Assembly: GCF_949628265.1 (NCBI RefSeq)
Contig: NC_088787.1
Location: forward strand, 3,028,501-3,092,500
Origin: Cloeon dipterum
Lineage: Eukaryota; Arthropoda; Insecta; Ephemeroptera; Baetidae
Length of the DNA: 64,000 nt
Reading direction: 5' to 3'
The notes below the pieces were generated by a model, which searched no databases, was not told where the DNA came from, and saw only the letters and a list, made by a program, of their open reading frames with translations. This document shows positions 21,894 to 55,700 of the stretch, in pieces. The position numbers and the translations under genes are program-made. Position 1 is the first letter of the stretch; the number at the start of each line of letters is the position of its first letter.

Positions 21894-21904
21894 TAGGGAT
21901 TGGT

Positions 21905-22030
21905 ATATCAACTTTGATATATCAACTTTGATATGATATTTCAAATATCATATCAATATCAACCCTGATATCAGAAATATCATATCATGGTGATATTGAT
22001 ATCAAAGTTGGATATCAAAGCTGATATTTT
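21905..22030. repeat. Subterminal GATATC palindrome array, left end of hAT
   Basis: Dense run of 'tatcaactttgatat', 'gatatcaa' and 'catatcatggtgatattgatatc' units, mirrored at the other end (28995-29100). Such subterminal motif clusters in hAT elements usually serve as binding sites for the transposase. Confidence 0.7.
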
Positions 22031-22423
22031 AGCCGAAAAAATACTTTTTGAGCTCACTTTTTCGTCTTTTTCTTGAAGTTTTCCAATTTCCAACCAACCT
22101 TTTTTGTGCCGGTGTGGCTGTGTCGTTGTCAATGTCAATATCGTTGTGTAACGTGTCACAGTCACAAAATATGAAAATATGGGCGGGCATGACTTGCATG
22201 GGTGTGGGCGTTACCGTAAACAAAGGCCCGGCCGTGATCAGCCGGGATCGGGATACACAAACACAAGTACTACGACAACTTCACTTCACCTTGTTGTTGT
22301 TGGCCTGCTAATGGCCTTACCTTAATGTAAGTCAAATATCATTCGTTAAATACTACATATTGCTTCAAGTGAAAGGCATTTCAATATTTGTATTGAATTT
22401 ATATTTATTCCATTCCAGCAGTT

Positions 22424-24667
22424 ATGAAAGCCATGAAAATTAGGAAAAATTGCTGGTGTGAATGTCATCTTGCTTCTGCTAAACGCTGGCGAGCCGAACG
22501 GAAAAAGCGCAATGCCCAAGCTAATCGACTGCTTATTGCACTGATTATCCTTGCTAATATTCCAATTAGTCTGGTTGAATCTGAAATATTCAGACGTTTT
22601 GTGAATTATTTGGCTCCTTGGTACCAAGTTCCTTGGAGGAAAACGGTAAGTTCCTTATTTGAAGTTTCATACAAGATAGTTGCCATATGACCAATGACCA
22701 ATTTCGTAGTTCAACAAAATCTTGGACCACACTTACATCTCAGGGCAAAAATTTATGAAAAAAGAGTTAGAAGGGAAGACAGTCTCTTTAACTCTTGACC
22801 TGGCAACTGTTTTGAACTCAACAAGACATTTCATTGTTTGCTCTGTGCACTACCTGGCAGGTTGGTAAAATTTGTGGGAACTATTGAACATTTATTTATT
22901 TCAATTGTAATTAATGTTTCAGACCGCAGCTCAAACATCATGAAATGTTGCACACTGTATGTAAGCCAAATGACGCAAAGGAGCACATCAGCCGACATCT
23001 GCAGGTCTTTGAACACAGCGTTAGTAGAGTTTGGAGTTGACGTGGACCAGGTCATTTCGACTTGTACGGATAGAGGTGCTAACGTCTTGAAAGCGTGCAA
23101 AGACCTATTTGGAGAAAACAAGGTCACATCTTGCGTTTGTCATTTGGCTGATAACGTCGTGCAAGATTCTCTCTACTCACTACCTATTGTTTACGCATTA
23201 TTGAAAGACGTGAAACAAGTAAGTTATTCTCTGAAAATAAAATTGATTAGTGTTGCAATTATATTAGGCCTTGATGTTTCTTCAAGTTTGCTTTTGGTAA
23301 AAAATAGTTAAATTCGTTAAATTAATTCACCTACAAAAAATAATATACACATGATATCATTGTATATTAAACACTAATTTTATTGCTATTTACCAAGTCT
23401 GAAATTCGCTCTAATATTTTTTTTTTATTTAGATTGCTGGGTTTATTAAGAGGAGTCCAACTGCAGCAAATTTGCTGAGGACATTCCAAATGCAAACAGG
23501 GAAAACGTATAGTGCTTGTCTTATGCCTATCCAAAGCGTAAGAACAAGATGGAATAGCACACTCGCATGCATCCGACGATACATCGAGCTTCATCATCAT
23601 ATAAAGAAAGTGCTATCGCATCCTTCCCTGAATTCCTCTAAAACCAAACCACCTGGTGTGCCTGATGTAGCGGTGGCGAGTCTGTCTGAAATGGCCTCTG
23701 TACTCATCCCATTTGAAGAGCTCACGAAGACATTTTCATCGTCAACACGTATGCGTAGCAGTGCTGTTGTCGCGTCAATCAAAGGACTCATTTTGAAAAT
23801 CGAATCAACTAGTTTGACTGAACCAGTAGCAAAAAGCCTCAAAGAAAAGCTGCTTTTGAAACTCAACGAAAAAAAAGCAGCTATTGAAGGAAACAAAGTT
23901 TTCTGCGCTGCAAACCTTGTTGACCCAAGGTATTCCTCAAAACAATTTTTTAAAATATTAAATGCTTCACAAACTGAGAGTAAATAGCTGCAATTGAGCA
24001 AATTAAATTAACTGTTTCCTCACACAAAAGTGCAACAAAATGTTTTTTATTGTAGTTAATCTACAGGTGGTACCTGTATAATTATCTTGTTATATCTGCA
24101 TAAAATTTGAGCTCAATGTTACTTTTTTGTTTCAGATTCAAAGGTTTGTCGTTAAGTAAAGAGCAGTTCTCAGCAGCTGCCAAACTGATCAAATCAAGGA
24201 TGATAATGGAGGAAGGGGGAGATTCAGGTCCAGCTGCACTGTCCCTTGGCTCTAATAAAGATCAGGAGTAAGTAAAAAGTTGTTTTTATAACATAAATTA
24301 AATATGAGCTTTTGTTAGTGACATCTTGCTGGAGATGTTCTACAAAATGGAGCCGCAACCCAAGAGACCGCGGACTGTTCACCAAGAATTGAACGATTAT
24401 TTTGACTCCCCAGTTGAGCCCTACCACTGCGATCCTTGGAAATGGTGGCAAGAAAACGCAGTACAATACCCAGCTTTAGCATCTGTCGCTCGAGACTTAT
24501 TTGTGGTTCAACCATCTTCGGTGCAGTCCGAAAGAATCGTGTCCTCCGTCAATGCAGTGTTAACAGATGAGCGGAGTAGGTTACTTTCAATGCGGTTAGG
24601 AAAAATAGTATTCTTGAAAAGCCTTACTACAGACGCTTGGGATGCCATAATCTACAATCAAATTTAA
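22424..24667 (+). CDS. hAT transposase, six exons, open, no BED finger
   Basis: Exons 22424-22645, 22710-22860, 22923-23218, 23433-23929, 24136-24267, 24319-24667: 1647 nt, all GT-AG and in phase, 548 aa. Order: N-terminal block SLVESEIFRRFVNYLAPWYQVP (hAT entry motif); first catalytic Asp in VSLTLDLAT; second Asp in STCTDRGANV followed by CVCHLADNVV; Glu candidate in SLSEMASVLIPFEELT; C-terminal dimerisation region with WKWWQENAVQYPALASVARD and SSVQSERIVSSVNAVLTDERSRL. The domain set matches hAT transposases, but no BED zinc finger precedes it and only about 530 bp separate its ATG from the element end. ATG 22424 is chosen because it lies 6 nt after an acceptor-like AG; a non-coding first exon is likely. 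Looks functional. Confidence 0.88.
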
Positions 24668-25649
24668 ATTTCAGCTGAGAAAATGAGTGTTTTATTTTAT
24701 TATGTCCCGGAGTTGAGAAAAAATTGGTAACATTATGGGAGCAAACCATATAATATAAATATTTTGTGGTGCGCTTTAACAAAAATTATCATTACTATCG
24801 GCGATTCATATTATGGAGTTGAGACTTTTGATAGTTTGATTAGATAATCTAGAACTTGAGAAATAATAGTTTATAGGAAGTTTTATACTACATATTTTCT
24901 ATAACATGATGAGTTGCAAAGTTTCTAACCATTTCATATATACATAATAATTTTGACACTTCGTGTGAGTTTTTGAAAAAAAATGGGATTAGAGAAGCCG
25001 AAGAGCAAAGCAACACCACATTTTAGGGTTACACTCGAAAATTGATAAAAAAAGAATCAGAAAATACGTATTACACACAGAGGCAATTCAAAATACTTGC
25101 AATATCAAATTTTACAGCGAACAATGCTAAAATGGAAACGATATTCTAGTGAGTGGAGGGTAATGTGCTAATAGAAAAAATTAGTTATTTTCACTTTTAT
25201 TTAATGTTATAACAGTAAGGAACATATACTGTCAGTTGAGCATGGAAGGGTAAGATGCGACAAACGACATAACAGTCGCTTCGTCGTCAGACACGTCTCT
25301 TGTGAGCAATTTTAGCTTGTTTCGGCTCGCACACATCACAGCAAAGTATTTAGAAGCTACTGAATACAATTCATGACCTGACTTCAGCAACCAAGGCTCA
25401 TGAAAGGTAGGAGTTGTGATGCTTTCCTGGGTCTCGTCTAAGTAAGCCTTGAGGTTGCTACTCATTCCATAATGTGCAGTGCTTGCATTTCCCCTTGAAA
25501 TACATCTATCGCTCAGATATGTTTCCCAAAATGTTTTTAACAAGCCTAGATAAAGAAATAATTGTATTATTGAAGCCAAATAATTCCCATTATTTTCTGC
25601 TTGAAATTTTGGAATAAATCAAATTAATATGCTGTGCCAAAACCACACT

Positions 25650-28649
25650 TACAATGAAGAAGGCCCTGCGTGCTGCATAAAGGAAAAATTCTTCACATGC
25701 CGCTCCTCTCCAGTGACCAGTTCCGAGCAAGCAGAATCAGATTTTCTAATACTCCTTCTTCTAGAGTACTCGGTAAAGTGAGAAAGGCCAAATAGATCAA
25801 ATGGGATCATAGACTCAAAATTACGGGGAAGCAGGCGATCCCTTTCAGTGAGCAGATAGTTAACTTTGTTTAGTTGTACTTTTCCTCTACTTATATCTAT
25901 GGCCCCATTTGATCTATTTGGCCTTTCTCACTTTACCGAGTACTAGAAGAAGGAGTATTAGAAAATCTGATTCTTCTTGCTCGGAACTGTTCACTGCCTG
26001 GAGAGGAGCAGCATGTGAAGAATTTTTCCTGTTTGCGGCGCGCAGGCCTTGCTCATTCCTCATCCAGAGGAAGTGTTATAGTAAAGTCAGGAGCAGAGTG
26101 TGAGCAGAGTACATACAAGTATTTTAAGTAATTGCTATCGATTTAATTACAAACAATTGAACTATGTCCGTGATGTTATCAGTATTCTTAGCTTAAATAA
26201 TTATATCAAAGTTCTGGGCAAGGTTTACATAAATGTTTACGTAAAATCTGAAGGCTTATATTAAATTATATCTATAGGAATTTTTTCAGTTTACCAAGAT
26301 GCATCAATTATGCACGCAATCTGTTTCAAGCTCCTATTAAAATAATATTAATATTACCATCTTCACAGCTACTTTCCTTGCGCCTTTCCTCTTCTGCCAA
26401 ATCATTGTGGTTTTTGCGCGTCCTTTTCAGCTCGGCTTCAAGTCTAGAAATGCAATTGGAATACACGATGGCGTCTTGGATGGGCGCATTTTTGGTTCTC
26501 AAGTCAAGAAGCTTCAGATATGTGGTTGTGTCTTGGTCAGGTCCCGAAAAGCAGTCTTTCAAGGCTTGTTTGGCAAGCTGTGCAATCGTCACAGCATCAG
26601 GCATTTTTAAATGCTTGATTTGTCCTTCAAATGAGGCTGAAAGAATCGATTATATTAATAAAGCGAGTATAAGAAACTCGACAAACAAATTACATCACAG
26701 ATTGTTAAAATATTAAATAATAATGTTACAATATTAAAATTATGAGATCTATTCTCAAGCAGAAATGTAAGCAAAATTTAATTCATTCAATATTACCTAA
26801 GAATAAGCTCTCAAAGGTAGTCCAAAGTGAAAGATGAAGATAGTCTGGTTTTAAGAGTGAAGAAGTGAGGATCTTGTTCAGAGCTGAAAGGATATCAGTG
26901 ATTTCCCTTGCAATGGTTCGCTCCCGGTGCGAGAGACCATCTAGGTCAGCCTCCTCGTCGCTGACGGTGGCCAGCAATGAGTTGTAAAGGAGGAGCAATT
27001 TTAGGGTTTCAGCAATGGACCCTCTTGCATTGGTAACTTGGTCTCGCTCCTCCTTGCTGGCTAGCAACGCCAAAAAACTAGGGCTGTGAAAGTGTTGAAA
27101 GGCTTTATTAGTAATCAAAAGACTGCAGTAGCGAAATAATTTACCTGAACATCTTTTTGGATAGTGGAACCACACGAGACTTGTAGAAATCGATGTCTTC
27201 GATTTCTTTTTGCACTTTTTCCCATGCAACTTCCAAGGCTGAAAACACGCAAACGACGACTGGGACGTGTTTTGTTGTGGCACACATGGCAGGAATCAGG
27301 AGTTCAGGCTGCGGGCCAATGATTATGCAGCCAACCTTGTCTTGGAGGTATTTGGCTGACATAACATTTTGGACCATTTGTTCGAGTTGGTCCCAGTGGA
27401 TGAATTTTCTCACATCTAGAGTAACTGAAGCCATTTTGTTTTCCACTACAATAATAAAAGCAGTATTAGGATGCGAAAATTATTGTACATTTTAGGAATA
27501 TAGACTTACCCGTCATGTAGATCAAGGTTGCAGTGAAATAATCTTGTCCACAGACGTTCCGAATCTTAAACTCAAGTGTTGCATCAGAAATTGATTTGTT
27601 CACTTCTTCAATCAGCATGCTCTTCTTCATTTCATACTGGGCTCGCATGTGGCATTTAACCTAAAACGTAGAGATCAGAATTTTAAGATAGAGGAATTCA
27701 GATTTATTAGAAATATTTGTTGCTTACATCCTCCGAGCTGGTGAAAGAACTGAATGCTGGACAAGCGCACTCAAGAATGGCCTTGAAATGTGGGCTATCA
27801 AACAGCCGAACGCTAGCGAATTCGCAATTTTCCAGAACAGCCATGGCTAACTCAGATAGTTTAGATTCAGTGGCTTTCTTGCTGAGAGCTGGAATAGAAA
27901 TTAAATTAGTTTTTATTATACAAAATAAGTGGATTTAGATAAGAGGCTTCAACTGCACATCCCATTTACATAAATAACTTTAGGAGATTATTCAGGTGTT
28001 TTGCTTAATCTAGACTCACTCCCCACTAGTTGAAAAACTTACCGAAAGACTGCAAAATTGTAGCTTGTTTCATTTTCTTAGGCCCATTTTCGCTTGCATG
28101 TTCTACTTCATTATAGCTGCTGGTGCTGCTGCTGGTGCTTGCAGTGTTTGTTCTTTTCTGGTTCTAAAAGTTATACATATAGTTAGTGTCATCTAGAATT
28201 CCATACATTTTTATTAATACTTTTTTTTTACCCTCCTTTAGTTTCTGTCTTGAATGATGTTTAATGTAGATTGGAAAGTGGTGTTTTTCCAGGTGGTGCC
28301 ATAAATTGCTTGTATTGCTTCCTCTTACTTTCTTAGCGCCGGGGCATTTCAGACAATAGTATAGCCCTTTATCATTTGCATCACGTCTGAAGTATTTCTT
28401 TACTATGCAGCCATGGCTTTGCGCACCAGCCTCAGCCTCCTCAGTCACATTCGATTCTGCTTCTTCCCGCTCTTCCTCCTCATCCTGATGAAATTAAAAT
28501 TGATTATTTTAACCTTAATGAATGCTATTTCGTTATCGTAATAAAATTAAAATATGTAATGTATGTACCTCTATGTGGATATCTATTGGTTCCGAATTTG
28601 GTGGTGATGGCGGCGGCGGATCGTCTTCTATTTCATCGTTCTGTTGCAT
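25650..28649 (-). CDS. BED zinc-finger, hAT-associated second protein
   Basis: Multi-exon minus-strand gene inside the hAT. Exon 1 is 28569-28649 (ATG 28649; acidic/proline start MQQNDEIEDDPPPPSPP). Exon 2, from 28484 to about 28232 or just beyond, encodes a BED finger YYCLKCPGAKK...SNLWHHLEKHH (Cys-X2-Cys, His-X4-His). Later exons at about 28022-28163, 27727-27891, 27510-27660, 27145-27447, 26796-27083, 26360-26638 and 25650-25865 stay open and mostly phase-compatible. The exon 2/3 junction needs a donor after GKKK to keep phase. Segments such as RLFDSPHFKAILECACPAF resemble hAT bodies, but the TDNAxN-type motif reads CIIIGPQPELL, so no catalytic Asp. It is probably a DNA-binding partner. 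The 3' end is uncertain: a stop at about 25652, or an extra exon to 25232. Confidence 0.6.
25672..26045. repeat. Inverted duplication inside the hAT second gene
   Basis: About 135 bp (25672-25806) recurs inverted at about 25904-26045 with a spacer of about 97 bp. Shared: 'cccatttgatctatttggcc' and 'gaagaaggagtattagaaaatctgattc'. The arms differ by a few bases and one short indel. The left arm is part of an apparent coding exon of the minus gene; the right arm copies it in the opposite sense. Confidence 0.8.
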
Positions 28650-28994
28650 ATTGCTTGAGGATAGCTGGTGAATTCTTTTTAAATTCAGCATTTTATTATC
28701 AATTCAGTCTCCCAGTTTCTGGACTTGCTTCTTCTCTTACGCAACGCAAAACGAAAACAACAACAGAAGCACACTCCCACGCTAGACCTGCGCAAGAGCC
28801 AGACCCTCCCCTGCGCCCGCCGATTGTCAACTGTCAATGTCAACAAAACCTAATCGAAAGGCGCCAAATTGAACTTATAAAGCAGTAATATATTGCTAAA
28901 CACCTATAACCGGCTAAAATAACAAAAATTACATGTTTTTAAGGTTTAAACTGACTGTTGCCATTCAAGACCCATTAAATGGTCAACGTTTCGT

Positions 28995-29100
28995 ACATCA
29001 GGTAATATCAACTATGATATATCAACTTTTGATATTTTTGTGTTGATATATCAAAAATTTGATATCTGAAATATCATATCAATATCAGATATTTGATATC
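28995..29100. repeat. Subterminal GATATC palindrome array, right end of hAT
   Basis: Mirror of 21905-22030: repeated 'gatatatcaac', 'tttgatatc' and 'atcatatcaatatcagatatt' units just inside the right terminus. Confidence 0.7.
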
Positions 29101-29126
29101 GTTTTTGGCGCGAGTACCGATCCCTA

Positions 29127-29134
29127 TCGGTTTC
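29127..29134. repeat. Target-site duplication of the hAT element, right
   Basis: TCGGTTTC, identical to 21886-21893. Confidence 0.9.
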
Positions 29135-32100
29135 AACGCCACTTTGCAGAAGCATGTCAAGGATTTGTTCGTTTCCCAGCCTAGCTGCTTCCATTGCCGC
29201 GCGTCTTCTATGTCTTCTAGACAATTTAGATCCGATCAGCTGGGGTAAAATGGGGAACTTATCTTTGAGCTTCTTAAAGAAGAGAGTTGCGTTGCATTCA
29301 GCAACTCTCTTCAACAAGTTAGGCAGAATTTTAAGCAAAGGATCTTCGCCTTCGATCATGTCTGTTTCCACAAAATGAACAGCGATGTCCTCAGCGTTCT
29401 TTATCACGTAATTCAACAAAAGCGAATCCTTTCTGCAGTAAATCGAATCACCATTTTTGGTTTTTTTAAAGGTCATCAAAGATTTTATCATAGAGTACAT
29501 GGATCTCAGATTCTCAAACACGACAAACTCCAAGAACGCATCTGGATTGGATTTCACTGCATGTAAAAGTGCATTTTTGTGCAGGTTTACTTTTTGTGCA
29601 TCACGCTGTATCGTGGAGTAGTACATATCAACAAACTTCCAACACTCCCTGAAATCGCATTCGTCTTCGAATATGGTTTTCTCCTCATCGAAGAAGTTGC
29701 TTGGCTTGAAGAGCCCGTTAGCCTCCTCAACGTCATGCACGAATTTTCGGGCAGCTAAGAACTCCGCGAATGTTTCGTGCAAGAAAATGATCCTGTCATT
29801 TTGAAACATGGCGACACCGTAGCCATTTAATTTTTCCATGTCCTCTATTCTTCCTTCTCGGCCGAAACGTTTAGCTTGGCCTAGATAGCAAAACGCTATC
29901 CTTTGGAGAAAGCTCATTGCTGAATCGGTTTCAATTTCAAACTGGTTGTGGGTTGCGTCAAGCCCTACTCGATTTTTCAAACACATTTCCACCTTGAGCC
30001 GCACAACCTGCTCGTAAATTTGGTACAAATTTCCTCTGCCTCCGCTTTGCGCGACTAAAGAGAGGTGCAGAGGGTTTTGTAAAATGTCCTTTTTTGGAAA
30101 TTTTTCTATGAATGATTTGCAATCATCTTCACTCTTTCCAGTCTCCAGTTTTAAAAACTCTATTTGCTGATTTTTCTTCAATGGCTCAATTTTTAATATC
30201 ACTGCATTTTTCACGGCTTTTTTAATCAATGCAGCTTTGTGAGGTCTCGTTCCAATCATAACTGGCACCATATTTTTGCTCAATGATTCGATTAATCTCA
30301 GCATTTTGTTTTGGTACTTAAAGTAGATTTCGTCAAAACCATCGATCAAAACGACGAATTTCTTGCTTGAAATCCAGTTATTTACGTCTTCTAGTGAACG
30401 GTTTGTTGATTCGGCGAGAAATTCGAATTCATTCGAATGGCTTTTTTTCATCAATTCGTTTGAGATGCTTGCAAGGGAAATATGTACTATTTTCAGTTCA
30501 GTGTTTTCTTTCCTGAGCTGGAAAGCAATTTCTCTAAGGACAGTCGTTTTTCCTGAACCAGCAACTGAACTTAAAAGACAGACAAGATTTTTGGACACTA
30601 CAATTTCAACTATTCTGTCCAAGCAGATTGTTTCATCCAGTTTGTACATTCTGAGAGATGGGAAGTTTCCAGATTCTATTGAGAAATGAAGTTTTACAAA
30701 CGACCTTGGAAAATCGGGAAAGTCAAGAAGAAACTGAAGTGTCGAGTTGAACAACAATTGTTCGTCATTTGATTCTGAATAAAGCAGACGAGTTGCGAGC
30801 AGTTCTTGCAAACTTTTACCTTCCTTCAGCTCTTTACCTTTGAAGATTTCAATCAGCATTTCCAGTTTTTCTGTAGAACACGAAATCATTAGTTGAATTT
30901 ATTATATTGGAAGAAATGCGTTACCTTTGCTGTTCAAAACTAGGACAAGCCAGCCACTATGGTTCGTTGCAGACATTTCAAAATTCTTTGGCCAGGAAAT
31001 ATAATCAACAATTTTTTTTTCAGGTATTAGCACAAAGAAATATAATTTCATTCAAAATTCAAACTCCGTGTGATTTTTTTTAAACGAATATATAAGTTTT
31101 TCGCTAAACAAGATTGAATTTCAAGTCTTACTTTGAATGAGCCAAGAGAGTCGTGGCAAGTTTCTTCCTGGTCAATTAGGAAAAATATTTTGGGCTTTCC
31201 GATCCACTTGTCATTGTTCGGGCCGATAAAATTACGAAGTATACTAGTCATCGTAATTTCTTCATCTCCCACTCGTAAGCAAACTTCTTTTGTATCTTTG
31301 TGTTCGCTTACTGACCCAAACATAAACGTAAAAATGCAGCCTACGTCAGGTTCAAGCTCAGATACTGCAGGTAAAACACTGTTTAGATTTAAAAACTTAC
31401 GAATTCATTGATCTCTACCTTCTTTGAAGTACAACTCCAGGGACTCCTTTTCATTCAGCATCCTCTCACTGGTTTCAAAATCTAGATTTTTTGAGAGCGC
31501 GTTTTTAATTTTATCTACGGCTGTGTGTGGTTCTGCTAGGAGAAGGAACGCTCGACGGTGTCGGATGTTCGCTTTCGAGCTTGATTTCCAAGTGAAAAAT
31601 TCTGGTTCGGCCGCCAAATTCTTCGGTGCAGTTTCGGAAGTAGGATAAGAATGGGAGCTTCGAGCATCATCCTGGCTTCTGTAAAATTACTGCATGGTGT
31701 TAAAATATCAATGAATTACCTCGTTCCCATCTGTTTAGTAAAAGATCTTTCCCGTTCTCACGTAGAAACTCTCAGCTTATTATTATTAAACTCACTTTGA
31801 GAAGGAAAAGTTGCTTTTCATTGCAAATATTTTGATCTCCGGTGTTTGGCTGATGTATTTGCATTCATCTAAGTCGTAGTTGCCCTTTGAATTTTGGTAA
31901 ATTTGAAATTGAATCGAGGTGAAAACATTTACGAGGGGCTCATCCTTCGGCATCGAGTTTATGACATTGCAAGATTCTTGAGCAAATATCGTTCCAGATT
32001 CTCCTCGTACGGCTCTAGTGGCTGTCAAAATGTATTTCATGTGTAAAAATCGTACGTAATATTCTTAACACTCTTACTTTCCACAGTGGAGTAAAAGACA

Positions 32101-32969
32101 ACCAAGTTGCGCATCTTTGGTTCGTATGTGATGCGACAGGAATTTTCGTTATCAAACTTCCCTTGGTTGGCGCTGTAAATCGTGTCGAAATATTCTCCTC
32201 GACATGGCTGTAGAAAGATTCTATTTTAAAATATTAAAGTCAAAGAACAAAATTACCCCAAAGTTGACGATTTTGAGGCAGGTGTCAAAAAGCGTCAGAT
32301 TTTTTAAAGAGTCGAAAATATCGGTCGTGGAGAAGGAAATGAATTTGTCAGAATCCTCACTCTCGTAATGGTCGGTGCAAATTTTTCCATCTATGTTGCC
32401 GAAGGATAGAATGTAAAGCACGAAAACGGAAGGAACGTCGTCTGAGCGAATTAAAATAGTTATTAAGATCTGAATCATGAACTCATGAAATTTCCACCTT
32501 CAGAGCTAAATAAACGCAAAAGCTGTTCCTGGTCAGAGAGGAGTCCAAGCAACGCTTCTCTTTTTGGTGATAAAATACTGCGAAAATTGCACTTGCGATT
32601 CCCTTTAAAGGTCATTTCCTGGTCCAATACGTCCTTGGCATCTCCATGCCGAATTAAATTTTTGTTTCTCGCGTTTTTGAAGTCATAGTGGATGACAAGG
32701 ACGCAAACGCTTTGAACAAATTAAAATTGTTAATTTTTCAAACAAAAATTCAATTGGATCCTTACTTTTCGGCATTTTGTTTCACGTTTTGAACAATCCC
32801 AGGCGGAAGGAAATAGCCAAGGTCAGCTTCTCCTTCAGGTCGGCCTAATGCCTCACCTATAAAAAATATGAATCGTTCAAGGACCCGATTTTGAACTGAT
32901 TCGTAATAATATTAACAACAATAAATCTGACCTACCTCTCGCCACTATATCTTCTAAGGTCTCTTCCAT

Positions 32970-33719: not shown

Positions 33720-34310
33720 CCGTTCTGCGTCACCAATCTTTATGAGATCATCAAAATAGCTTAAACCAGAGTGGTAAGGGAGGAAATTGCGACCCGGCCG
33801 CGCGCACAGGAATGCAAAAAAAGTCTAACTAATCGGTTACAAGGTCAGCTCTAGCTTGCACACACTAAATTATTAAAAACAAATAAATCAGGTCTATAAA
33901 AACACTTAAATCCATCTTTTTGGAATTCCCCCGGCCTCGTTATCAGAGAGTGATTAAATAAATTAATTTAATTAAAAATAATTATTTCCTACATTTCCAA
34001 CTTGATTGTAATTTAAAATACTGAAAAAATTTAAAAATGCGTCGAAATCGCTAAATAATGATCAGTATTATTTAGAAAATCGCGTGAATTAGAATAAAAG
34101 AGAGCAAACTCACCGCGCGGACGTGCGCATCCGCCGACTCCGCTTATCACTCCCTGTGTGTGTGCTGCTGTGCTGCGCTTCGCCGAGTGTGTGACTCGCC
34201 GTTCGCCTCACGCGTGTTGTTAGACTTTTTCAAGACGACATCAACGCCCCACCCAGTGCTCACCTTCAGCAACTCTAGTCTGAAAGGATTTATTTATTTT
34301 CATGTAAAGT
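33720..34310. repeat. Block P repeat, copy 1
   Basis: First of four related blocks of about 600 bp (others 34540-35170, 45620-46140, 46430-47020). Shared order: 'gtctaa..atcggttacaaggtcagct', 'caggtctataaa', 'gttatcagagagtg', AT-rich 'aatttaattaaaaataatta', 'gcgtcgaaatcgctaaataatgatcagta', 'actcaccgcgcgg', a GC-rich stretch, and 'gttagactttttcaag'. No conserved ORF. It lies between copies 1 and 2 of the caspase-NACHT-ankyrin genes. Confidence 0.8.
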
Positions 34311-34539: not shown

Positions 34540-35170
34540 GCACCCGCTAGTCGCTTACGGACCTTAGAGAAAAAATGGACAAGATTTTGCGTTTTAACAC
34601 GTAATAAGATTTTATGCAGAGCAGGTTTCACGCCAAACGTCGGATGCATCGCCGCAACAGTGTGGCGAGAGGACAAAAATAGAAGCCCGGTCACGCCCAC
34701 AGCCATTTAGGCAGGCAAAAGTCAAACTATCGGTTACAAGGTCAGCTCTCTCTTTCACTTATTCGATTAATAAAACAAAAATTAAAAATCGGGCACACGG
34801 AAACCATCGTTTTGAAATTTTCTCCGTTATCAGAGAGTGGCTGAATGATTTAATTTAATTCAAAATAATTACTTCCAACCTTTCCTACTTCATTTTAAAA
34901 TACTGAACAAATCTAAAAATGGATCAAAATCGCTAAATAATGATCGGTAATATTTAGAAAAGCTCGTGAATTAAAAGAAAAAAAGAGAAACTCACCGCGC
35001 ATAAGGGGGCCTCCGCCGACTCCGCTTGTCGCTCGCTGTACAGTGTGTGCTGCTGTGCTGCGCCGCGCCGAGTGTGTGGATTCGCCTCACGCGAGTTAGA
35101 CTTTTTCAATATGACGTCATCTCTCCATCAGCTGTGCTCGGCTATTTTACGCATCATTTCCTCCAAACCA
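34540..35170. repeat. Block P repeat, copy 2 (tandem with copy 1)
   Basis: Same content order as 33720-34310, offset by about 0.9 kb. The left part adds 'gcagagcaggtttcacgccaaacgtcgga', also seen in the 45.6 and 46.4 kb copies, so the full unit is longer than the shared core. Confidence 0.8.
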
Positions 35171-35569: not shown

Positions 35570-38500
35570 TTAAGCCCCATGATCGAGCAGTTCTTTCACT
35601 AAACTATTGCCAAACCAAGAATTTAATTTTTTGGCGTAGTACAATGCCGTTTTTTTACTATTGTCTTGTGTGTGTATGTCCACATTTTTTGACAGCAGCA
35701 ATTCCGCCGCTCTGCAATTACCATTTTTGCAAGCAAGCAGCAGCGCTGTTTCTCCTTCATCGTTTGTGCAATTTAGATCGACTAGCCGTTCCGTCACGAG
35801 CCAAAAAATGACGTAATCATTCGAAGATTTAATAGCCAAATGCAAGGTTGTATCTCCGTTATTCAAGCGCAGTTTCATCAAATCACCGTTTATTTCATGG
35901 ATGAACATAAACATGTATAAATCCCAAATCGCGTAGTGCAAAACATTTTTCCCTTCCTTGTCGGTCACACTAGGGTCTGCGCCTTTTTCAATTAACTTGC
36001 GCATTAAGTCCAAATCCCTACATTGAGCGGCGTAGTGCAGAGCGGTCCTTCCCTCTAGGTCTACCGTGTTGATTTCAACATCTTCAGCTGATAGAAGCTG
36101 CTTAGCGAATTTCCAACTCGTTTTTTTGCACGCCAAAAGCAGTGCAGTTTCGTTCAAATTGTTTTTCGCGTTCGAATCGACTTCATTCTGCTCCTCGAGC
36201 CAGGAAAAGAGGGAATCACTAACGATATAATGTTTTGCGGCCGAATGCAAAATTGTGTTTCCGTTTATCAACTTTGCTCTCGCCAAGTCCCTGTTTTCCT
36301 CAAAGATGAATTCAAAAATATGTGTGTGAAGTGCATGGTGCAAAGTATTTTTTCCTTTTTTGTCCGTCAACTTAATGTCTGCTCCTTTCTCTATCAACTC
36401 TCGCACGATATCCAAATCCCTACATTGAGCGGCGTAGTGCAGAGCGGTCCTTCCCTCTAGATCTACCGTGTTGATTTCAACATCTTCAGCTAGTAGCAGC
36501 TGCTTAGCAAATTTCCAACTTCTTTTTTTGCAAGCCAACAGCAGTGCAGTTTCGTTCAAATTATTTTTCGCATTTAAATCGACTTCATTCAGCTCCTTGA
36601 GCCAGGAAAAGAGGGAATCACTAACGATATCATGTTTTGCGGCAGAATGCAAAATTGTGTTTCCGTTTATCAACTTTGCTCTCGCCAAGTCCCTGTTTTT
36701 CTCAAAAATGAAGTCAAAAATATTTTTGCGACGTGAATGGTGCAAAGCATGTTTTCCTTTGTTGTCTGTCAACTTTGTGTCTGCTCCATTCTCTATCAAC
36801 TCTCGCACGATATCCAAATTTGATGATTTTGCGGCGTAGTGCAGAGCCGTTTTTCCCTTTTCGTCTTGTATGTTGACATCGACGTTTTTGCACAGCAGAA
36901 AGCTGACGATTTCCCATCTAAATTTCTTGGAAGCCAGTATGAGCAATGTTTCGCCCAAGTTATTTCTCGCATTCAAATCAACGCAATTCTGATCCACAAG
37001 CCAATGGATTACGTCGTCGTTTGAAATTTCCTCCAGTCTAACCGTGATTTCATTTTTACACTCGATTGCATGGTGCAACACATTCTCTCCATCGTTGTCT
37101 GATATAGTCAAACTTGCCCCGTGTTCTACAAGATTTTGCACCAGATGCAATCGTTTAATTGAGTTGGCAGCTGCGTGATGTAGAGCGGTTTTGCCTTTAT
37201 CTCCTCTCTGATTGACGTCAGCTACCTTTTTTAACAAGCAGTCAACAGTTTGCAGACATCCTTTTGCACTTGCAATGTGAAGAGCAGTTTCTCCCTTGTC
37301 ATTCGTAGCGTTGACGTCAGCTCCAAGTTCTACGAGTTTCTCCACAAACTTGAAATTTCCCTTCTCTGCGGCAACCTGCATCGGCGTCGAGCCTGTTTTG
37401 TCTCTGATGTTCAGATCGCCACCCAGATTTTTCCAAATTTGTAGAGCTTCGTTGTCATTCCATTCCGCAGCCAAATGCAAATGTGACCGTCCCTCTAAAT
37501 TCTTGAAACCAAGGTCGATTACCTTCTTCAGTAAATATGTGACGCATCGCAAGTTTCTGTCAACAGCGATGGAGAAAGCTGTTCTTCCTTCCTTGTCCAC
37601 TGCTTTCGCGTCAACTTCTGCTTGCTCAATCAGGACACATAAAAATTTGTTGATTTGAAATCTATCACGCCGGAAAACTCTTTCGAGAATAATATCCAGT
37701 TTGGTTTGGTCACTTCCGGTTTTCTTTTCACGGTGACAACTTTGGAGAAATATATGCAGGCCGGTTTGGTCATTTCTGGTTTTCTCTTTGACAAGTTGTT
37801 TATCCGTGCTGAGCAACAGTTGGATTATTTCAATACTTTTGTCTCTCTGGTTCTTGCAGGCAAAGTGAAAGGAGTTCCATCCGCTATTGTCCTTTTCTCT
37901 AACGTTTGCTCCAGAATTAATCAACTTGCGAACGAGTTCCAAAATACCATATTCCGATGCGCAGTGAATGGCAGTCTTTCCCCTGTCGTCTTTTTTGTTG
38001 ACCTCATTTTGAAGCATCAGAAAGAAGTCGGCGTACTTATTTTCCACCTTTGACCAATCTTTCGAATCTCCACTCGGAATCAAAGTGGTCACATCGGCAC
38101 CTGCTTCGTTCACAATCCACTGACACAATTTCCAATTTTCTCTCTTTGCTGCCAAGTGAAGAGGACTTTCAGCTGATTGAATTTTGAGGCTTATCAAATT
38201 GGGACACTTTTCTAACAAATATTTCGCGACGTCTGTGTGACCACTTTCTACAGCACATTTGTAAGCTCTCCAATCTTCGAACTCTGTCCTTGCCCTGATC
38301 TTATCCTCCAACAAAAACTTGACCAATTCAAGGTGACCGAATATGGCAGATACTTCTAATAGGGATTCATCTCTGATTTCTCTGGCTCCATGTTTGAAGA
38401 GAACTTTCACACATTTGATGGATCCACACCTGCAAGAAGAGCGAAGAAGGTCTTCATTCAAAGTATAACGTCCATTGGTTGCTTCTGTTTGAACTGTATT

Positions 38501-41500
38501 TTGAAGAAGAAAATCAAGAATTTCATCGTGTCCTCTAACAGCTGCTGAGATCATAGGATCAATGGACTCAATCATCATTAGCAATTTTTTAAACTTCTCA
38601 TCCTTAAACTTATTTAAGAAGAGAATTGCGTTGTATTTTGCCGCTTTTCGCACTAAGACAGGTAAACTTTCAAGCACCTGATCTTCGCCTTCGAAAAAAT
38701 CCATTTCAATCAAATGAGCTGCGATTTCGTCGGCGCTCTTAACTGCACGCTCCAAAGTGTTCAAATTCCTCGAATAGCAAATGTGACCAACTTTTGTTTC
38801 ATCAAAAGTCATGAAAGGTTTCAGCATGGAGAAAATGTTTCTCAAGCCCTCTTCAGCAACTTTTTCCAGGAACCCATCTGGATTTAATCTTGCTACGTCT
38901 AGAAATGCTTGTCTATGCACTTTTATCTTCTCTTCATTGCGCAATATTGTGCAATAGTACAAATCAACAAACTTCCAACACTGGCTAAGATTGTACTTGT
39001 CGAACAAGCCAGACTCCAACTTGCAATTTTCCTCAATATCGTGTACAATTTTTTGGGCTGCAAGAAACTCGGCGAAGGTTTGATGAATGAAAGTGAGCTT
39101 GTCATTTTCAAAGGTGGCAACTCCATAGCCGTTAACTCTTTCCAGTCTTTCTTTTGTCTCACACGTAGGTCGAAAACTTATCGAATCAAACGCTGTTGTT
39201 TCAAGAAGCTCCATTGCAGAATCCAACTCATTTCCGAATTTTTTGTGGTTTGGGTCAAGTCCATTTCTTTCTATCAAACACATTTCCACCTTAAGCTCCA
39301 CAATCTGCTTGTAAACATCATGCAAGTTGCTCTTGCCTTCGCTCCGAGCAACCAATGAGAGGTGCAAGGGGTTTTGCAGAATATCCTTCGACGGAAAATT
39401 GGCAAGGAATGTTTGGCACTGCTTTCTACTTTTCTTGGTTTCCAATTGCAATAATACGATTTGTTGTTCTTTGTTCAATGGCCTGATTTCTGCTGAGACC
39501 ACATTTTCCACAGCTTCTTCAATCATTTTTGCTTCATGGGGTCTCGTTCCAATCCAAACGGGAATCGATCTTTGTTTCAAAGCTTTGATCAATGTCATTA
39601 TATTTCCTTGATATTTTGAGTCGATCTCGTCGAAACCGTCAAGAAAAACGACGCAATTTCTGCTTTCAATCCATTTCTTAACTTCTTCTTTGACTGGATT
39701 GTGCGTAGCTCCTGCGAGGAACTCAATTTCGTCTATTCCTCTCTTCGATATCAATTTGTTAGAGATGCTCGCGAGGGATATGCGCAGTATTTTCTGTTGA
39801 ATATTTAGTAACCCGAGTTGGAAAGCAATTTCTCTAAGAACAGTCGTTTTTCCTGCACCAGCAACAGAACGCAAGACCCAGATACGGTTACCTTTCAAAG
39901 CTTTTTCCAAAATCGTGTCAAAGGACAACACTTTTTCACTATCAAACTCTGGCAAACCCTTGACTAAGAAGTGAGGCTTGAGGAAAGATCTTGGAAAATC
40001 CGGAAAGTCGAGTTTGAAGTGCAAAGTCGAGTTGAGCAGAGCCCGTTCTTTCGATTCTGAAATTAAAAGTTTTTCGACCAATTCTTGCAGGCTTTTTCCT
40101 TCCTTTAGCTCTCGGCCTTTGAAGATTTCGATCAGCAATTGAAGTTTGTCTGAGGAATGGAATCTTTGTCAATAACTGATTTTAAAAATTAAATAAACTC
40201 TTACTACCTTTGTTTTGCAAAACTAGGACAAGCCAACCACTGTGGTTCGTTGAAGTTACTTCGAAATTCTTCGGCCATGAAATCTAATTAACAAAATGGA
40301 CTTTAGAAGAAAAATAACTATTTTTATTTTAAATTGCATTGACTAGACTGATAGATCAATTAAATCCTAGTTCCCGATTTTCAAGCTATTGAATATCTTC
40401 TTAATAATCTTACTTTCATAGAGCCGCCTGCGTCGGTTTTTGTTGCCTCCTGGTCAACTAGGATAAATATTTTGGGCTTTCCGATCCACTTGTCATTGTT
40501 TGGCCCGATAAAATTACGCAGGATCTCAGTTATTGCAATGTCCTCATCACCAAATCGGCAGCAAACTTCTCTCGTATCTTCTTTTTCACTTAATTTTGCA
40601 ATAATAAATGTAAAAACGCAGCCGACGTCAGGTTCCAGCTCAGATACTGTGAACAATTGATTTCAATCAAAGCAATCATCGATATCGTCTTTTTTAACAC
40701 TGACCTTCCTTGTAGTACAGCTCCAGAGATGATTCGCTCAGCATCCTCTCGCTAATTTCGAATTGGAGGTTTCCTGAGAGGGCTTTTCTAATTTCATTCA
40801 CGGTGTCATTTGGCTCCGAGAATAAAAGGAACGCTCGGCGGTGTCTCACGTTTGCTCCTGAGTCTGATTTCCAAGGGAAAAACTCAGAATCTACTTTCAC
40901 TCTTGAAACATCACCAGAGGAGCAGGAGTTAGAAGAAACCAAGCTGCTTCTGCAAAATAAAAAATTCAATATTTTCATCCAGTAATATATTTTATTTGCT
41001 TACTTTGCAAAGAAAAATCTTCGATTTAATGCAAACATTTTAACCTCTGGGGTTTGACTGATGTAGACTCCTTCCTTTACGTTGTAGTTGTCCTTCAAAT
41101 TGTTGTGGATTTGGTTCTGGATTGAGGTAAGGACGTTTAAAAGGGACTCGTCTTTCTCCAGGGTGTCCAGGACCTTGCAAGCTTCTCGGATAAATGCCGT
41201 TCCGGACACTCCACGGATTGCTCTAGTAGCTACGAATTTTTAAGTATGATTGAATTTACTAGGTTTTTGTTTTTCATGATCACTCACTTTCCACAGTTGA
41301 GTAAAAGACAACTAAGTTGCGCATCTCTGGTTGATAGGTAATGCGACAAGAATTTTTGTTGTCAAACTTTTCTTGGTTGGCACTGTAAATTGTGTCAAAA
41401 AATTCCCCTCGGCATGGCTGTAGGAAGTTTTAATTATTATTTATTAAAGTTGAAGAATAAAATTACCCCAAAGTTGATGATTTTCAAGCAGTCTTCAAAG

Positions 41501-42176
41501 AGCGTCAGATTTTTCAAAGAGTCGAAAATGTCGGTCGTGGAGAAGGAAATGAATTTGTCCGAATCCTCACTCTCGTAATGGTCGGTGAATATTTCTCCAT
41601 CTATATTGCCGTGGGATAGAATGTAAAGCACGAAAACTGAAGGAACGTCGTCTGAGAAAATTAATATAGTTATTAAGATCTAGATCATGAACTTGTGAAA
41701 GTGTCACCTTCGGAGCTAAAAAAACGTAAAAGCTTTTTCTGGTCTGCGAGGAGTCCAAGCAACACCTCTCTTTTTGGTGATGAAATACTGCGAAAATTGC
41801 ACTTGCGGTTCTCTTTAAAGGTCTTTTGTAGTTTTTTCACGTCCTCAGCGTCTCCGTCCCGAATTAAATTTTTGTTTCTCGCGTTTTCGAAGTCATAGTG
41901 GATGACAAGGACGCAAACGCTTTGAACAAACAAAAATGTAAATTTTCCTACATAAATTCAGTCGGATCGTTACTTTTTGGCATTTTCCTTCACGTTTTGA
42001 TCATTCCCAGGTGAAAGGAAATGGCCAAGATCAGCTTCACCCTCAGTTCGGCCTAATGCCTCACCTATAAAAAGTAGACCATCGTTCAAGGACCCAATTT
42101 CGAACTGATCCGTAATAGTTAACAAAAATAAATGTAACCTACCTTTCTCCACTATGTCTTCTAAGGTCTCTTCCAT
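35570..42176 (-). CDS. Caspase-pseudocaspase-NACHT-ankyrin protein, copy 2, intact
   Basis: Exons (minus): 42143-42176, 41974-42064, 41708-41919, 41467-41651, 41288-41417, 41004-41229, 40705-40949, 40414-40646, 40208-40283, 35570-40149; all in phase, 2003 aa. Residues about 42-293: caspase p20/p10 with VCVLVIHYDFENARN, LIRDGDAEDVKKL, catalytic His in YILSHGN (about 126), Cys in FGPCRGE (about 176; the family consensus is QACRG), then VVFYSTVE and p10 RGVSGTAFIREACKVL. About 310-520: a second caspase fold, RRAFLLFSEP, then VFTFIIAKL without His-Gly and IGKPKIFILVDQEA without Cys. About 560-700: NACHT with Walker A SVAGAGKTT, Walker B VVFLDGFDEID and IGTRPH. The rest is about 26 ankyrin repeats. 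No CARD or death domain, no signal peptide. Likely a cytosolic NLR-like receptor with its own protease; function inferred. Confidence 0.88.
36060..36865 (-). repeat. 402-bp ankyrin module duplicated in tandem (copy 2)
   Basis: Four consecutive ankyrin repeats (134 aa, from G-TALHYAA to EINTVDLE) occur twice in a row, with very similar DNA: 'ctacattgagcggcgtagtgcagagcggtcc' recurs at a spacing of 402 bp (about 36019 and 36421). Copy 3 has this module once. It is a recent in-frame expansion of the ankyrin array. Confidence 0.85.
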
Positions 42177-42650
42177 TGCAGTCTGGAAAAAACAGCCCGA
42201 GTTGATTAGCTGTTTTCCTGAACGATTTCCCATACTTCCTTTAAAATAATTTTAAATATAGACTATTGGAATATATTGCAATGTAAAATATTCGCTACGC
42301 TATAACAATTATTTCAACTTTTTTTGCATTCATCTGTACTTCAACAATCGGTTAATTACTGCGCCGCGCGACAAGGGGCTGCCCGGCTGACCACGACCTC
42401 AGACCTTTGATCCTTCAGGCGCCTGTCACCCTGCGGGCGTATGTCCGTCGAGACGATCGTGCCGCACACGCGTTTGTACTCGTGTCCTTGCCATTTGGCA
42501 TGAATCATGTTGAAAATCCCCCAAAAAATCCCGAGCGGGTGCGTTTTGAATGCGTCAAAATGGTTCTGAATAAACTATTAAATTTGAAAAAAGTCATTGT
42601 GGCACCTCACTGCGTGTGCACGTTGCAGCTCTCCGCGAGTGCGAAATCCG
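42177..42650. repeat. 5' flank of copy 2, shared with 59180-59560
   Basis: Contains 'aaatattcgctacgctat', 'gcgccgcgcg', 'cggacgatt/cgggcgtat', 'acgcgtttg', and 'aaaatcccccaaaaaatcccgagcgggt'. The same order is seen upstream of copy 3. It probably holds the promoter, but I cannot point to a core element. Confidence 0.6.
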
Positions 42651-46429: not shown

Positions 46430-47020
46430 CGAAAAATGGACAAGATGCTACGTTACAACTCGGAATATGTTTTTATACAGAGCAGAGTTCATGCCAAACG
46501 TCGGATGTACAGAAAATAGCAGCCTGGCCAAGCGTACAGCCAGTTAGAGAGCCAAAAGAATAACTATCGCGGTTACAAGCTTAAAGTCAGCTAGGTCTCT
46601 CTTTCTCTTAGATTTGAAAAAGAAAAAAATCAGGTCTATAAACACGAAAACCCATCGTTATAGAGTTTTCCTTGTTATCGGAGAGTGGTTCAATGACATA
46701 ATTTAATCAAAATATAATTATTTCCTACACTTCCGGCTTATTTTTCATTTTAAATGACTAAAAAATATAAAAAAGCGTCGAAATTGCTAAATAATTGACA
46801 GTAATCATTTGAAAACGGCGTGAATTAGAAGAAAAGAGAGCAACTCACCGCGCAGACGATGTGCATCCGCCGCCTCCGCTTAACACTTTGCCGCGCTGAA
46901 TTTGTAGATTCGCCTCACTCACGCGAGGTGTTAGACTTTTTCAAGGTGACACTTCTTATCTCCCCGCCGAGTGATCTCCCTTTGATCGACTTTTATCTCC
47001 ATCATTTGCTCCAAAAAGCA
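46430..47020. repeat. Block P repeat, copy 4 (tandem with copy 3)
   Basis: Offset about 0.83 kb from copy 3. 'cagagttcatgccaaacgtcggatg', 'aggtctataaacacgaaaacccatcg', 'gcgtcgaaattgctaaataatt', 'caactcaccgcgcagacg', 'gttagactttttcaaggtgaca'. So both spacers between family members carry a tandem pair of block P. Confidence 0.8.
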
Positions 47021-52785: not shown

Positions 52786-55700
52786 TTAAGCTCCTTGATC
52801 GAGCAGTTTTTTCACTATAATATTGCCAGTAAAAGAATTTAATTTTTTGGCGTAGTACAATGCCGTTTTTTTCCTATTGTCTTTTGTGCGTATGACCACA
52901 TTTTTTGACAGCAGCAATTCCACCGCTTCCAAATTACCATTTTTGCATGCGAGCAGCAGCGCTGTTTCTCCTGAATTGTTTCTGCAATTTAGATCGACTT
53001 GCTGTTGCTCCACGAGCCATTCAATGACGTAATTCTTCCTCGAAGATTTCATTGCCAAATGCAAGGTTGTGTCTCCGTTATTCAAGCGCTGTTTCACCAA
53101 ATCACCGTTTTTTCCATGGATGAACATCAACGTGTAATAATCCTCAATCGCGTGATGCAAAGCATTTTTCCCTTCCTTGTCGGTCACACAAGGGTCTGCG
53201 CCTCTTTCAAACAAGTTGCGCACTAAGTTCAAATCCCCAGAGTGAGCGGCGTAGTGCACAGCGGTCCTTCCCTCTAGGTATATCGGGTCGATTTCTACTT
53301 CTTCCGCTGATAGAAGCTGCTTAGCGAATTCCCTGCTCGTTGTTTTGCACGCCGACAGCAGTGCAGTTTCGTTCAAATAATTCCTCGCGTTCAAATCGAC
53401 TTCATTCTGCTCCTTGAGCCAGGAAAAGAGGGAATCACTAACGAAATCATATTTTGCGGCCCAATGCAAAATTGTGTTTCCGTTTATCAACTTTCCTCTC
53501 GCCAAGTCCCTGTTTTTCTCAAAAATGAAGTCAAAAATATGTTTGTGAAGTGCATGGTGCAAAGCATTTTTCCCTTTTTTGTCCGTCACACAAAGGTCTG
53601 CACCTTTTTCAATCATCTTGAGCACTGAGGCCAAAACTCCAGATCGAGTGGCGTAGTGCACAGCCGTATTCCCATTTTCGTCTTGTTTGTTGACATCGAC
53701 GTCTTTGTTCAGCAGAAAGCTGACGATTTTCCATCTGAAATTCTTTGAGGCCAGTATGAGCAATGTTTCGCCCGTGTTGTTTCTCGTGTTCAAATCAACG
53801 CAATTCTGATACACAAGCCAATAGATTACGTCGTCGTTTGAAATGACTTCAGTTTCATCAATGCTTTCATGGATACACTCGATTGCATGGTGCAACACAT
53901 TCTCTCCATCGTTGTCTGTCATGGTCAAACTTGCCCCGTGCTTTACAAGATTTTGCACCAGATCCAATCGTTTAATTGAGTTGGCAGCTGCGTGATGAAG
54001 AGCGGTTTTGCCTTTATCGTCTCTCTGATTGACGTCAGCAATCTTTTTTAACAAGCAGTCAACAGTTTTCCAGCATCCTTTTGCACTTGCAATGTGAAGA
54101 GCAGTTTCTCCCTTGTCATTCGTAGCGTTGACGTCAGCTCCAAGTTCTACGATTTTCTCCACAAACTTGAAATTTCCCTTCTCTGCGGCAACCTGCATCG
54201 GCGTCGAGCCTGTTTGGTCTCTGATGTTCAGATCGCCACCCAGATTTTTCCAAATTTGTAGAGCTTCGTTGTCATTCCATTCCGCAGCCAAATGCAAATG
54301 TGACCGTCCCTTTAAATTCTTGAAACCAAGGTCGATTACCTCCTTCAGTAAATGTCTGACGCAATCCAAGTTTTTGTCAACAGCGATGGACCAAGCTGTT
54401 CTTCCTTCCTTGTCCACTGCTTTCGCGTCAACTTCGGCTTGCTCAATCAGGACATATAAAAATTGGTTGATTTGATATCTATCACGCCGGTGACAACTTT
54501 GGTGAAAAATATCCAGTCCGGTTAGGTCACTTCCGGTTTTCTCCTCACGGTGACAACTTTGGAGAAATATATGTAGGCCGGTTTGGTCATTTCTGGTTTT
54601 CTCTTTAACAAGTTGGTTATCCGTGCTGAGCAACAGTTGGATCATTTCAATACTGTTGTCTCTCAGGTTTTTGCAGGCAAAGTGAAAGGAGTTCCATCCG
54701 CTATTATCCTTTTCTCGAACGTTTGCTCCAGAATTGATCAACTTGTGAACGAGTTCCAAAATACCATATTCCGCTGCGCAGTGAATGGCAGTCTTTCCCC
54801 TGTCATCTTTTTTGTTGACCTCATTTTGAAGCATAAGAAAGAAGTTGGCGTACTTATTTTCAACCTCTGACCAATCTTTCGAATCTCCACTCGGAATCAA
54901 AGTGGTCACGTCAGCCCCTGCTTCGTTCACAATCCACTGACACAATTCCCAATATTCTCTCTTTACTGCCAAGTGAAGAGGACTTTGTGCTGATTGAATT
55001 TTGAGGCTTATCAAATTGGGACACATTTCTAACAAATATTTTGCGACGTCTGTGTGACCACGGTCTACGGCACGTTTGTAAGCTCTCCATTCTTCTTCCA
55101 AGTCTGCTCTCTCCCTTATCTTATCTTCCAACAAGAACTTAACCAATTCAAGGTGACCGGATTCAGCAGATACTTCTAATAGGGATCTATCTCTGATTTC
55201 TCTGGCTCCATGTTTGAAGAGAACTTTAACACATTTGATGGATCCATAACTGCAAGAACAGTGAAGAAGGAATTCATTGGTTGGTTCTGTTTGAGCTGTA
55301 TTTTGAAGAAGAAAATCAAGAATTTCATCGTGTCCTTCAACAACTGCTGAGATCATAGGTTTTCTAGACTCAATCATCATTAGCAATTTTGGAAACATCT
55401 CTTTCAACTTATTTAAGAAGAGAATTGCGTTGTATTTTGCCGCTTTTTCCACTAAGACAGGTAAACTTTCAAGCACCTGATCTTCGCATTCGAAAAAATC
55501 CATTTCAATCAAATGAGCTGCGATTTCGTCGGCGCTCTTAACTGCACTCTCCAAAGTTTTCATGTTCCTCGAGTAGAAAATATTGTGACCAACTTTTGTT
55601 TCATCAAAAGTCATGAAAGGTTTCAGCATGGAGAAAATGTTCGTCCAATTCTCTTGAACAACTTTTTTCAGGAACCCATCTGGATTTAATCTTGCTACGT

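Follow-up and report, generated by a model that had tools for sequence, protein, structure and literature searches.

Gene organization at the locus

The window analysed here is a 64,000-nucleotide (nt) stretch of the genome of Cloeon dipterum (contig NC_088787.1, positions 3,028,501 to 3,092,500 of the forward strand, numbered below from its first letter). It carries a cluster of related genes on the reverse strand, of which one, referred to as copy B, has one continuous frame over conserved exons for a predicted protein with a caspase domain, a probable pseudocaspase domain, a NACHT NTPase and a long run of ankyrin repeats. The parts of copy B are as follows.

35570-42176, reverse strand: copy B, complete ten-exon gene, 2003 amino acids (aa), caspase - probable pseudocaspase - NACHT - ankyrin repeats
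42176-42143, 42064-41974, 41919-41708, 41651-41467, 41417-41288, reverse strand: exons 1-5
41229-41004, 40949-40705, 40646-40414, 40283-40208, 40149-35570, reverse strand: exons 6-10
41974-42176, reverse strand: exons 1-2, 41-aa leader with ATG at 42176 (translation, Pfam)
41288-41919, reverse strand: exons 3-5, caspase p20 with R62, catalytic H126 (SHG) and C176 (PCRG)
41004-41229, reverse strand: exon 6, caspase p10 with the substrate-pocket arginine R220
40208-40949, reverse strand: exons 7-9 (40705-40949, 40414-40646, 40208-40283), probable p20-like pseudocaspase, catalytic His and Cys missing
38576-40149, reverse strand: 5′ third of exon 10, possible pseudocaspase tail, NACHT NTPase, winged-helix-like FIHQTFAEFLAA, helical region
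35570-38575, reverse strand: 3′ part of exon 10, about 1,000 residues of ankyrin repeats (Pfam, repeat profile)

The exon borders were set by eye from three-frame translations and the splice consensus, and the exons were then joined, with the start and the last exon corrected. On joining exons 1-10, the phases chain into a single frame of 2003 residues that has no internal stop and ends with TAA at 35572-35570. All nine introns are GT-AG and, by their coordinates, 49-130 nt long; the gap between exons 6 and 7 is 54 nt and that between exons 9 and 10 is 58 nt. Copies B, C and A share the position of the latter intron, which measures 58, 58 and 54 nt, respectively, and the join of exon 9 to exon 10 is in frame in each of them. 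An earlier reading of the DNA alone (hereafter the sequence-only reading) had proposed ten GT-AG exons in one frame, and this holds good, with splice sites that are kept across the copies apart from one altered acceptor in copy A. The start that it had placed at 42176 is also the one we prefer, because the other candidate, ATG 42233, most likely falls inside an intron. Directly upstream of exons 1-2 there is a 53-nt GT-AG stretch (42183-42235, GTATGG...TTTTTTCCAG), likely to be a real intron, and copies C and E carry a stop at the place of ATG 42233, for which reason this ATG was dropped as a start. A Pfam search of the 41-aa leader gave no match, and CARD, DED and PYD were not called there. 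With residues 1-293 of copy B searched against Pfam at E values up to 1, Peptidase_C14 was the sole family obtained, with no CARD, PYD, DED or DD.

Copies of the gene in the cluster

The cluster comprises two open reading frames (copies B and C), one broken copy (copy A) and one 5′ relic (copy E). The features outside copy B are listed below with the evidence by which each was placed.

52786-58995, reverse strand: copy C, ten exons as in copy B, open over 1868 residues (exon joining, alignment, Pfam)
29127-32969, reverse strand: copy A, caspase (catalytic His to Phe) - probable pseudocaspase - NACHT (alignment, Pfam)
21894-29126, no strand assigned: hAT transposon in the ankyrin exon of copy A (target-site duplication, terminal repeats, Pfam domains)
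19990-21893, reverse strand: copy D, the ankyrin remainder of copy A past the hAT element (empty site, frame, Pfam)
59650-59896, reverse strand: copy E, 5′ relic with exons 1-2 and the stretch directly before them (tblastn, alignment)

Homology among copies A, B and C runs the length of the gene, up to the point where each stops. In a three-way DNA alignment of these copies the borders of exons 2-10 coincide, and every copy has GT at each of the nine donors. For exons 2-10 the acceptors are AG throughout, the sole exception being exon 9 of copy A, where AG is changed to AT and an in-frame AG is found 15 nt beyond. Length differences in exons 2-9 among the three copies are either 0 or a multiple of three. 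Over exons 1-9 plus the opening 100 nt of exon 10, identity is greater in exons than in introns both for copies B and C (0.941 against 0.909) and for copies B and A (0.791 against 0.631). It may be noted that copy C has ATA where copy B has its start ATG, and that an alternative start is available to it in frame, using ATG at 59050 and a 43-nt intron (59031-58989).

The hAT element interrupts copy A once about 1,060 codons have been read, and the joined model of this copy continues into the element as far as a stop at 29051. The element is 7,233 bp long, with an 8-bp target-site duplication and terminal inverted repeats that agree in 11 of 12 bp, and it may be nested, since its interior has a hAT dimerisation domain on the forward strand and a BED finger on the reverse strand. 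When the flanks of copies A and D are joined without the element, the reading frame is restored. Copy D has in addition a frameshift near 20595, and its last ankyrin frame (19990-20595) terminates in a hydrophobic stretch, FFLHFLIVIMLCSLLILAINTL, which copies B and C do not have; this may be a membrane tail in that lineage or the result of read-through. The three copies in 40 kb that the sequence-only reading had counted are therefore present, with the qualification that the third is split by the hAT element and that there is an extra 5′ relic at 59.65-59.9 kb.

The catalytic caspase domain

The first domain of copy B matches Peptidase_C14 of Pfam over residues 43-282 with 52.9 bits (cut-off 21.4), as compared with 32.7 bits for copy A and 60.6 bits for copy C, the last with domains 1 and 2 submitted together. 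A phmmer search of domain 1 against the PDB returned caspase-7 as the top match (E 0.0035). For residue assignment, and for the profile used in the next section, we took six human caspases. On alignment with these, R62, H126, C176 and R220 correspond to R64, H121, C163 and R207 of caspase-3. The His-Cys dyad (H126/C176) is intact in copy B and, in the equivalent residues, in copy C, and both aspartate-binding arginines of the S1 pocket (R62 and R220) are kept in copies B, C and A. Hence the caspase p20/p10 with an SHG histidine and a CRG cysteine, as first proposed, is confirmed for copies B and C.

Three features speak against taking this domain for a conventional active caspase. The pentapeptide is GPCRG and not QACRG in copies B, C and A, whereby the substrate-pocket Gln is lost; the Ser and Trp of the SWR motif are not retained; and the catalytic His is lost in copy A. 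Owing to the first two, the activity or specificity of the caspase may be altered, and it follows from the third that catalysis is not required in every member. In copy A (32257-32441, corresponding to 41467-41651 of copy B) Phe stands in place of the catalytic His, though the dN/dS of its exons is near 0.3. As these exons evolved at that ratio, a catalytically dead copy A may have been retained before the hAT insertion.

The second domain as a probable pseudocaspase

Residues 294-477 of copy B form a second domain, of which about 100 residues align in register with caspase p20. With the profile built from the human caspases, the second domains of copies B, C and A took ranks 1, 2 and 3 of 5,003 sequences (these three and 5,000 shuffles of copy B), at E values of 0.014, 0.047 and 0.27 against 0.28 for the top shuffle. 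Adding domain 1 of the window to the profile left the rank order unchanged, with E values of 0.0023, 0.0076 and 0.066 and a top shuffle at 0.076. By hhalign, P was 1.5e-4 with the first profile and 9.7e-5 with domain 1 added (probability 52% and 58%), with the register set at KPK[IL]F. Among the 520 stop-to-stop open reading frames of the window the exon 8 copies ranked 4, 5 and 7 with the human-caspase profile, ranks 1-11 all being caspase or pseudocaspase exons and the first other frame appearing at rank 12; with domain 1 added they ranked 11, 12 and 13, right behind ten frames of domain 1. In the profile alignment S-E-K of copy B domain 2 faces S-H-G, and its V-D-Q-E-A faces Q-A-C-R-G, by which both catalytic residues are read as missing. 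A low-confidence model of exon 8 (pLDDT, the predicted local distance difference test score, of 56.9) gives the order strand-strand-strand-helix-strand, which is that of the corresponding part of p20. A phmmer search of domain 2 of copy B against the PDB placed an ancestral caspase-6 first of 5 matches, though without significance (E 0.33).

Several results count against this assignment. The Pfam search of domain 2 gave no match, and domain 2 of copy A exceeds the top shuffle by only 0.1 bit (8.4 against 8.3). When a profile of the three copies of domain 2 was run against the PDB with hmmsearch, a plant polymerase subunit (E 0.33) came ahead of the sole caspase match, again the ancestral caspase-6 (E 0.95). 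The exon 8 model found no significant match among PDB structures (top E 1.9), two caspase-9 chains standing at ranks 10 and 14 of 86 without significance, and no signal came from comparing the domain 2 profile with that of domain 1 by itself. On balance we regard it as highly probable from the profile alignments that the p20-like part of domain 2 is a pseudocaspase, and an extension of the hhalign alignment makes a p10-like continuation into exon 10 possible. Of the second caspase fold claimed in the sequence-only reading, the p20-like part is thus recovered by profile methods only, Pfam being negative, and the p10 part is tentative.

NACHT and ankyrin regions

The NACHT family (PF05729, cut-off 26.7) is matched above its cut-off in all three copies (29.7 bits in B, 28.8 in C and 37.1 in A), in agreement with the NACHT NTPase proposed earlier. 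Walker A reads GAGKT in copies B and C and GSGKT in copy A, Walker B reads DGFDE in all three, and the sensor-1 Arg motif GTR is also present in each, as GTRP in copies B and A and as GTRT in copy C. A profile of the NACHT region had no hits among PDB sequences. An AlphaFold model of the NACHT with part of the ankyrins had a mean pLDDT of 58.9, and the best 50 of its 1,593 PDB matches are, by their titles, ankyrin-repeat or DARPin chains, so that this search is not a test of the NACHT fold. Relatives of the NACHT-helical region were also sought by pattern, and none of 100 matches in GTDB genomes and none of 127 in IMG/VR was confirmed, with none found in plasmids. Transfer from the sampled prokaryotes or viruses is therefore not supported at that sensitivity.

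In the C-terminal part of copy B, the Pfam ankyrin families include Ank_2 at E 4.9e-119, which together with Peptidase_C14 and NACHT completes the three families that the sequence-only reading had asked to be searched for in the conceptual protein. No leucine-rich repeat (LRR) is among the Pfam families reported for the copies, the C-terminal repeats being ankyrins. With an in-house repeat profile there were 21 matches in copy B (20 at i-E below 1 and 15 below 0.01). For a region of some 1,000 residues the earlier figure of about 26 repeats is plausible, and the count itself was not reproduced. The ankyrins of copy B contain a 402-nt internal tandem duplication, in which 35931-36230 and 36333-36632 are 87% alike; the exon 10 lengths of copies B and C also differ by 402 nt.

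Selection and divergence

The ratio of nonsynonymous to synonymous substitution rates (dN/dS) was calculated by the Nei-Gojobori method over 291 codons of the caspase, 184 of the pseudocaspase, 522 of the NACHT and helical part, and 863 of the ankyrins. Between copies B and C the values are 0.37, 0.31, 0.39 and 0.74, in that order. For caspase, pseudocaspase and NACHT they are 0.26, 0.31 and 0.29 between copies A and B, and 0.29, 0.30 and 0.28 between copies A and C. These three domains are under purifying selection. The dS between copies A and B (30870-32969 against 40149-42176) rises from 5′ to 3′, being 0.49 in the caspase, 0.82 in the pseudocaspase and 1.19 in the NACHT. Ratios of 0.26-0.39 at such dS values indicate that the three N-terminal domains have been maintained as protein for a long time, and the climb of dS from 0.49 to 1.19 suggests gene conversion of the 5′ caspase exons.

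For the ankyrins we compared copies B and C over 12 strong repeats at contact positions of the DARPin type. Amino-acid differences are commoner at contact positions (22 of 72) than elsewhere (44 of 317; P 0.0015), and nonsynonymous to synonymous changes number 28:2 at contact positions against 51:32 elsewhere (rounded; Fisher P 0.0009). What weighs against diversifying selection is that change at contact positions does not exceed the synonymous rate of the whole gene (28 observed, 23 expected, P 0.17), and relaxed constraint is consequently as good an explanation as positive selection. A binding surface that is weakly constrained or diversifying would fit the pattern, with positive selection not proven.

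Proposed mechanism and alternative explanations

From the anatomy, which is directly observed, we infer an immune role and every step of the activation route set out here. With moderate confidence we read the cluster as a small set of related NLR-type receptors, each on one chain, in which a caspase is the N-terminal effector and a pseudocaspase its built-in partner; such a protein would be a self-contained counterpart to the vertebrate immune machinery that is assembled from several proteins. In such a receptor the C-terminal ankyrin stack would bind either a ligand or a host protein that it guards, the NACHT would swap nucleotide and oligomerise and thereby gather the N-terminal caspase domains, and dimerisation by proximity would switch the catalytic caspase on. 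The adjoining pseudocaspase may serve as built-in dimer partner or allosteric regulator, comparable to c-FLIP(L) with caspase-8. The active protease would cut after aspartate and bring about cell death or another defence response, and no CARD, PYD or DED adaptor would be needed along such a route.

That the presumed sensor, switch and protease lie on one chain, as the sequence-only reading had it, is supported by the sequence, the conservation of splice sites and the purifying selection. It could be argued that a caspase gene and a neighbouring NACHT-ankyrin gene have been joined only on paper, given that the gene model is drawn from the DNA sequence and that AATAAA occurs in some introns of copy B, e.g. 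at 40996 (intron 6) and 40328 (intron 8). Yet the phases chain, the splice sites agree among the three copies but for the one acceptor of copy A, exon 9 runs in frame into exon 10 in each of them, and the 58 nt between these exons and 54 nt between exons 6 and 7 in copy B leave hardly any space for a terminator, a promoter and a 5′ untranslated region. Two separate genes are for this reason very unlikely. One gene could also give two products, the full-length receptor and a short free caspase produced by retention of intron 6, for in copies B, C and A the split Lys codon would be completed and followed by an immediate stop (the frames end at 41003, 57829 and 31795), with AATAAA in intron 6 of both B (40996) and C (57822). 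But any GTAA or GTGA donor in that phase would yield such a stop, AT-rich introns contain AATAAA by chance, and the scan for it covered copies B and C; we consider a second product unlikely.

Also unlikely, if slightly less so, is the explanation that the caspase is dead or nearly so in all members, the protein then being a scaffold, a decoy or a dominant regulator of other caspases. GPCRG in place of QACRG in three copies and the His lost from copy A would agree with it, as would a domain 2 that is already a probable pseudocaspase, whereas the dyad and both S1 arginines are kept in copies B and C in a domain under purifying selection. A cell-death or developmental gene that is not an immune receptor, with neutral local duplication, we consider improbable. 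The ankyrin dN/dS of 0.74 fits relaxed constraint; against this stand the tripartite layout of effector, NACHT and repeats, the cluster of unequal copies and the variation centred on the contact positions of the repeats, all of which are typical of recognition genes such as STAND receptors.

Beyond the one-chain NLR-type receptor, a wider reading is that the cluster represents a one-chain inflammasome, probably of the arthropod lineage, in which a catalytic caspase and its inactive partner share a chain with a NACHT switch and a fast-changing ankyrin aim, in a birth-and-death cluster broken by a transposon. We hold this wider reading tentatively, at slightly less than an even chance. Were it true, receptor, switch and death protease would be united in a single animal polypeptide, NLR-to-caspase activation would become testable with one gene and zero adaptors, and a caspase/pseudocaspase pair that elsewhere is built from two proteins would come directly under NACHT control.

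Comparison with known systems

The protein resembles animal NLRs and the NLR-caspase-1 inflammasome in having a NACHT switch with C-terminal repeats and a caspase output, but differs in that the caspase is on the same chain, there is no CARD, PYD or death domain, and ankyrins stand in for LRRs. LRRs are given as the defining feature of a bona fide NLR in the relevant part of PMC7308585, and the protein described here has neither these nor an N-terminal death fold (CARD, PYD, DED or DD). According to a survey (PMC11508797), arthropod NLRs are without an N-terminal effector domain, and for that reason an inflammasome is considered possible in other phyla with NLR and caspase-1 and not in Arthropoda; a one-chain inflammasome, if real, would be at odds with that statement. 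The absence of NACHT NLRs from Drosophila, put forward in the sequence-only reading, agrees with PMC2575513. It would be too strong to state that insects have no NACHT genes, since an NLR or NLR-like gene tree takes in ant species, as the part of PMC12370184 describing it indicates.

Fungal NLRs with a CHAT or S8 protease, often near gasdermin genes, are alike in that the protease is the N-terminal domain of the NLR, and fungal protease domains are also reported to be fused directly to WD40, TPR or ANK repeats (PMC12881547, PMC9815663). Unlike the present case, these belong to another kingdom, and CHAT, though of the caspase clade, is described as separase-like in fold, with no pseudocaspase partner mentioned in the passages concerned. 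Bacterial STAND/NACHT and caspase conflict systems likewise combine caspase-type peptidase effectors with NACHT-type NTPases (parts of PMC8195603 and PMC10907252), but are prokaryotic, and for the NACHT region here no relative was found in GTDB, IMG/VR or plasmids at the sensitivity used. The amphioxus ‘shortcut’ proteins (LRR-caspase and TNFR-caspase) are similar in that fusion of receptor and caspase skips the adaptor, the TNFR-caspase being backed by cDNA, but the passages of PMC2575513 that describe them do so without NACHT, pseudocaspase or ankyrins. In the heterodimer of caspase-8 and c-FLIP(L), the pseudocaspase domain either stabilises or inhibits the active caspase with which it pairs, as outlined in part of PMC7864959; there, two proteins are recruited via death-effector domains, whereas here there is one chain. 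Protease-NLR fusions are thus already known in fungi, while for the order caspase-(pseudocaspase-)NACHT-ankyrin in an animal no description was found among the titles and passages searched of the open-licence literature. This order may sit in gene annotations without comment, and its novelty is not proven. Taken as a whole, the interpretation given in the sequence-only reading is plausible and partly supported.

Other features of the window

On the forward strand, exons of trypsin-like proteases are present at 1793-2086 and 4972-5355, alike by eye, the latter of which matches Pfam Trypsin. Among the best 60 of 401 PDB matches to a trypsin exon of the window, most were vertebrate proteases. Also on this strand, 13032-14820 and 16601-18599 are by eye tandem similar copies of a leucine-rich, F-box/LRR-like protein, and two pieces of this pair that were tested had no Pfam match above the cut-off. 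Rfam and tRNA searches returned 0 matches. A dispersed family of 146-nt repeats occurs at 34012-34157, 34894-35039 and 46748-46893, with 83% and 72% identity to the reference copy.

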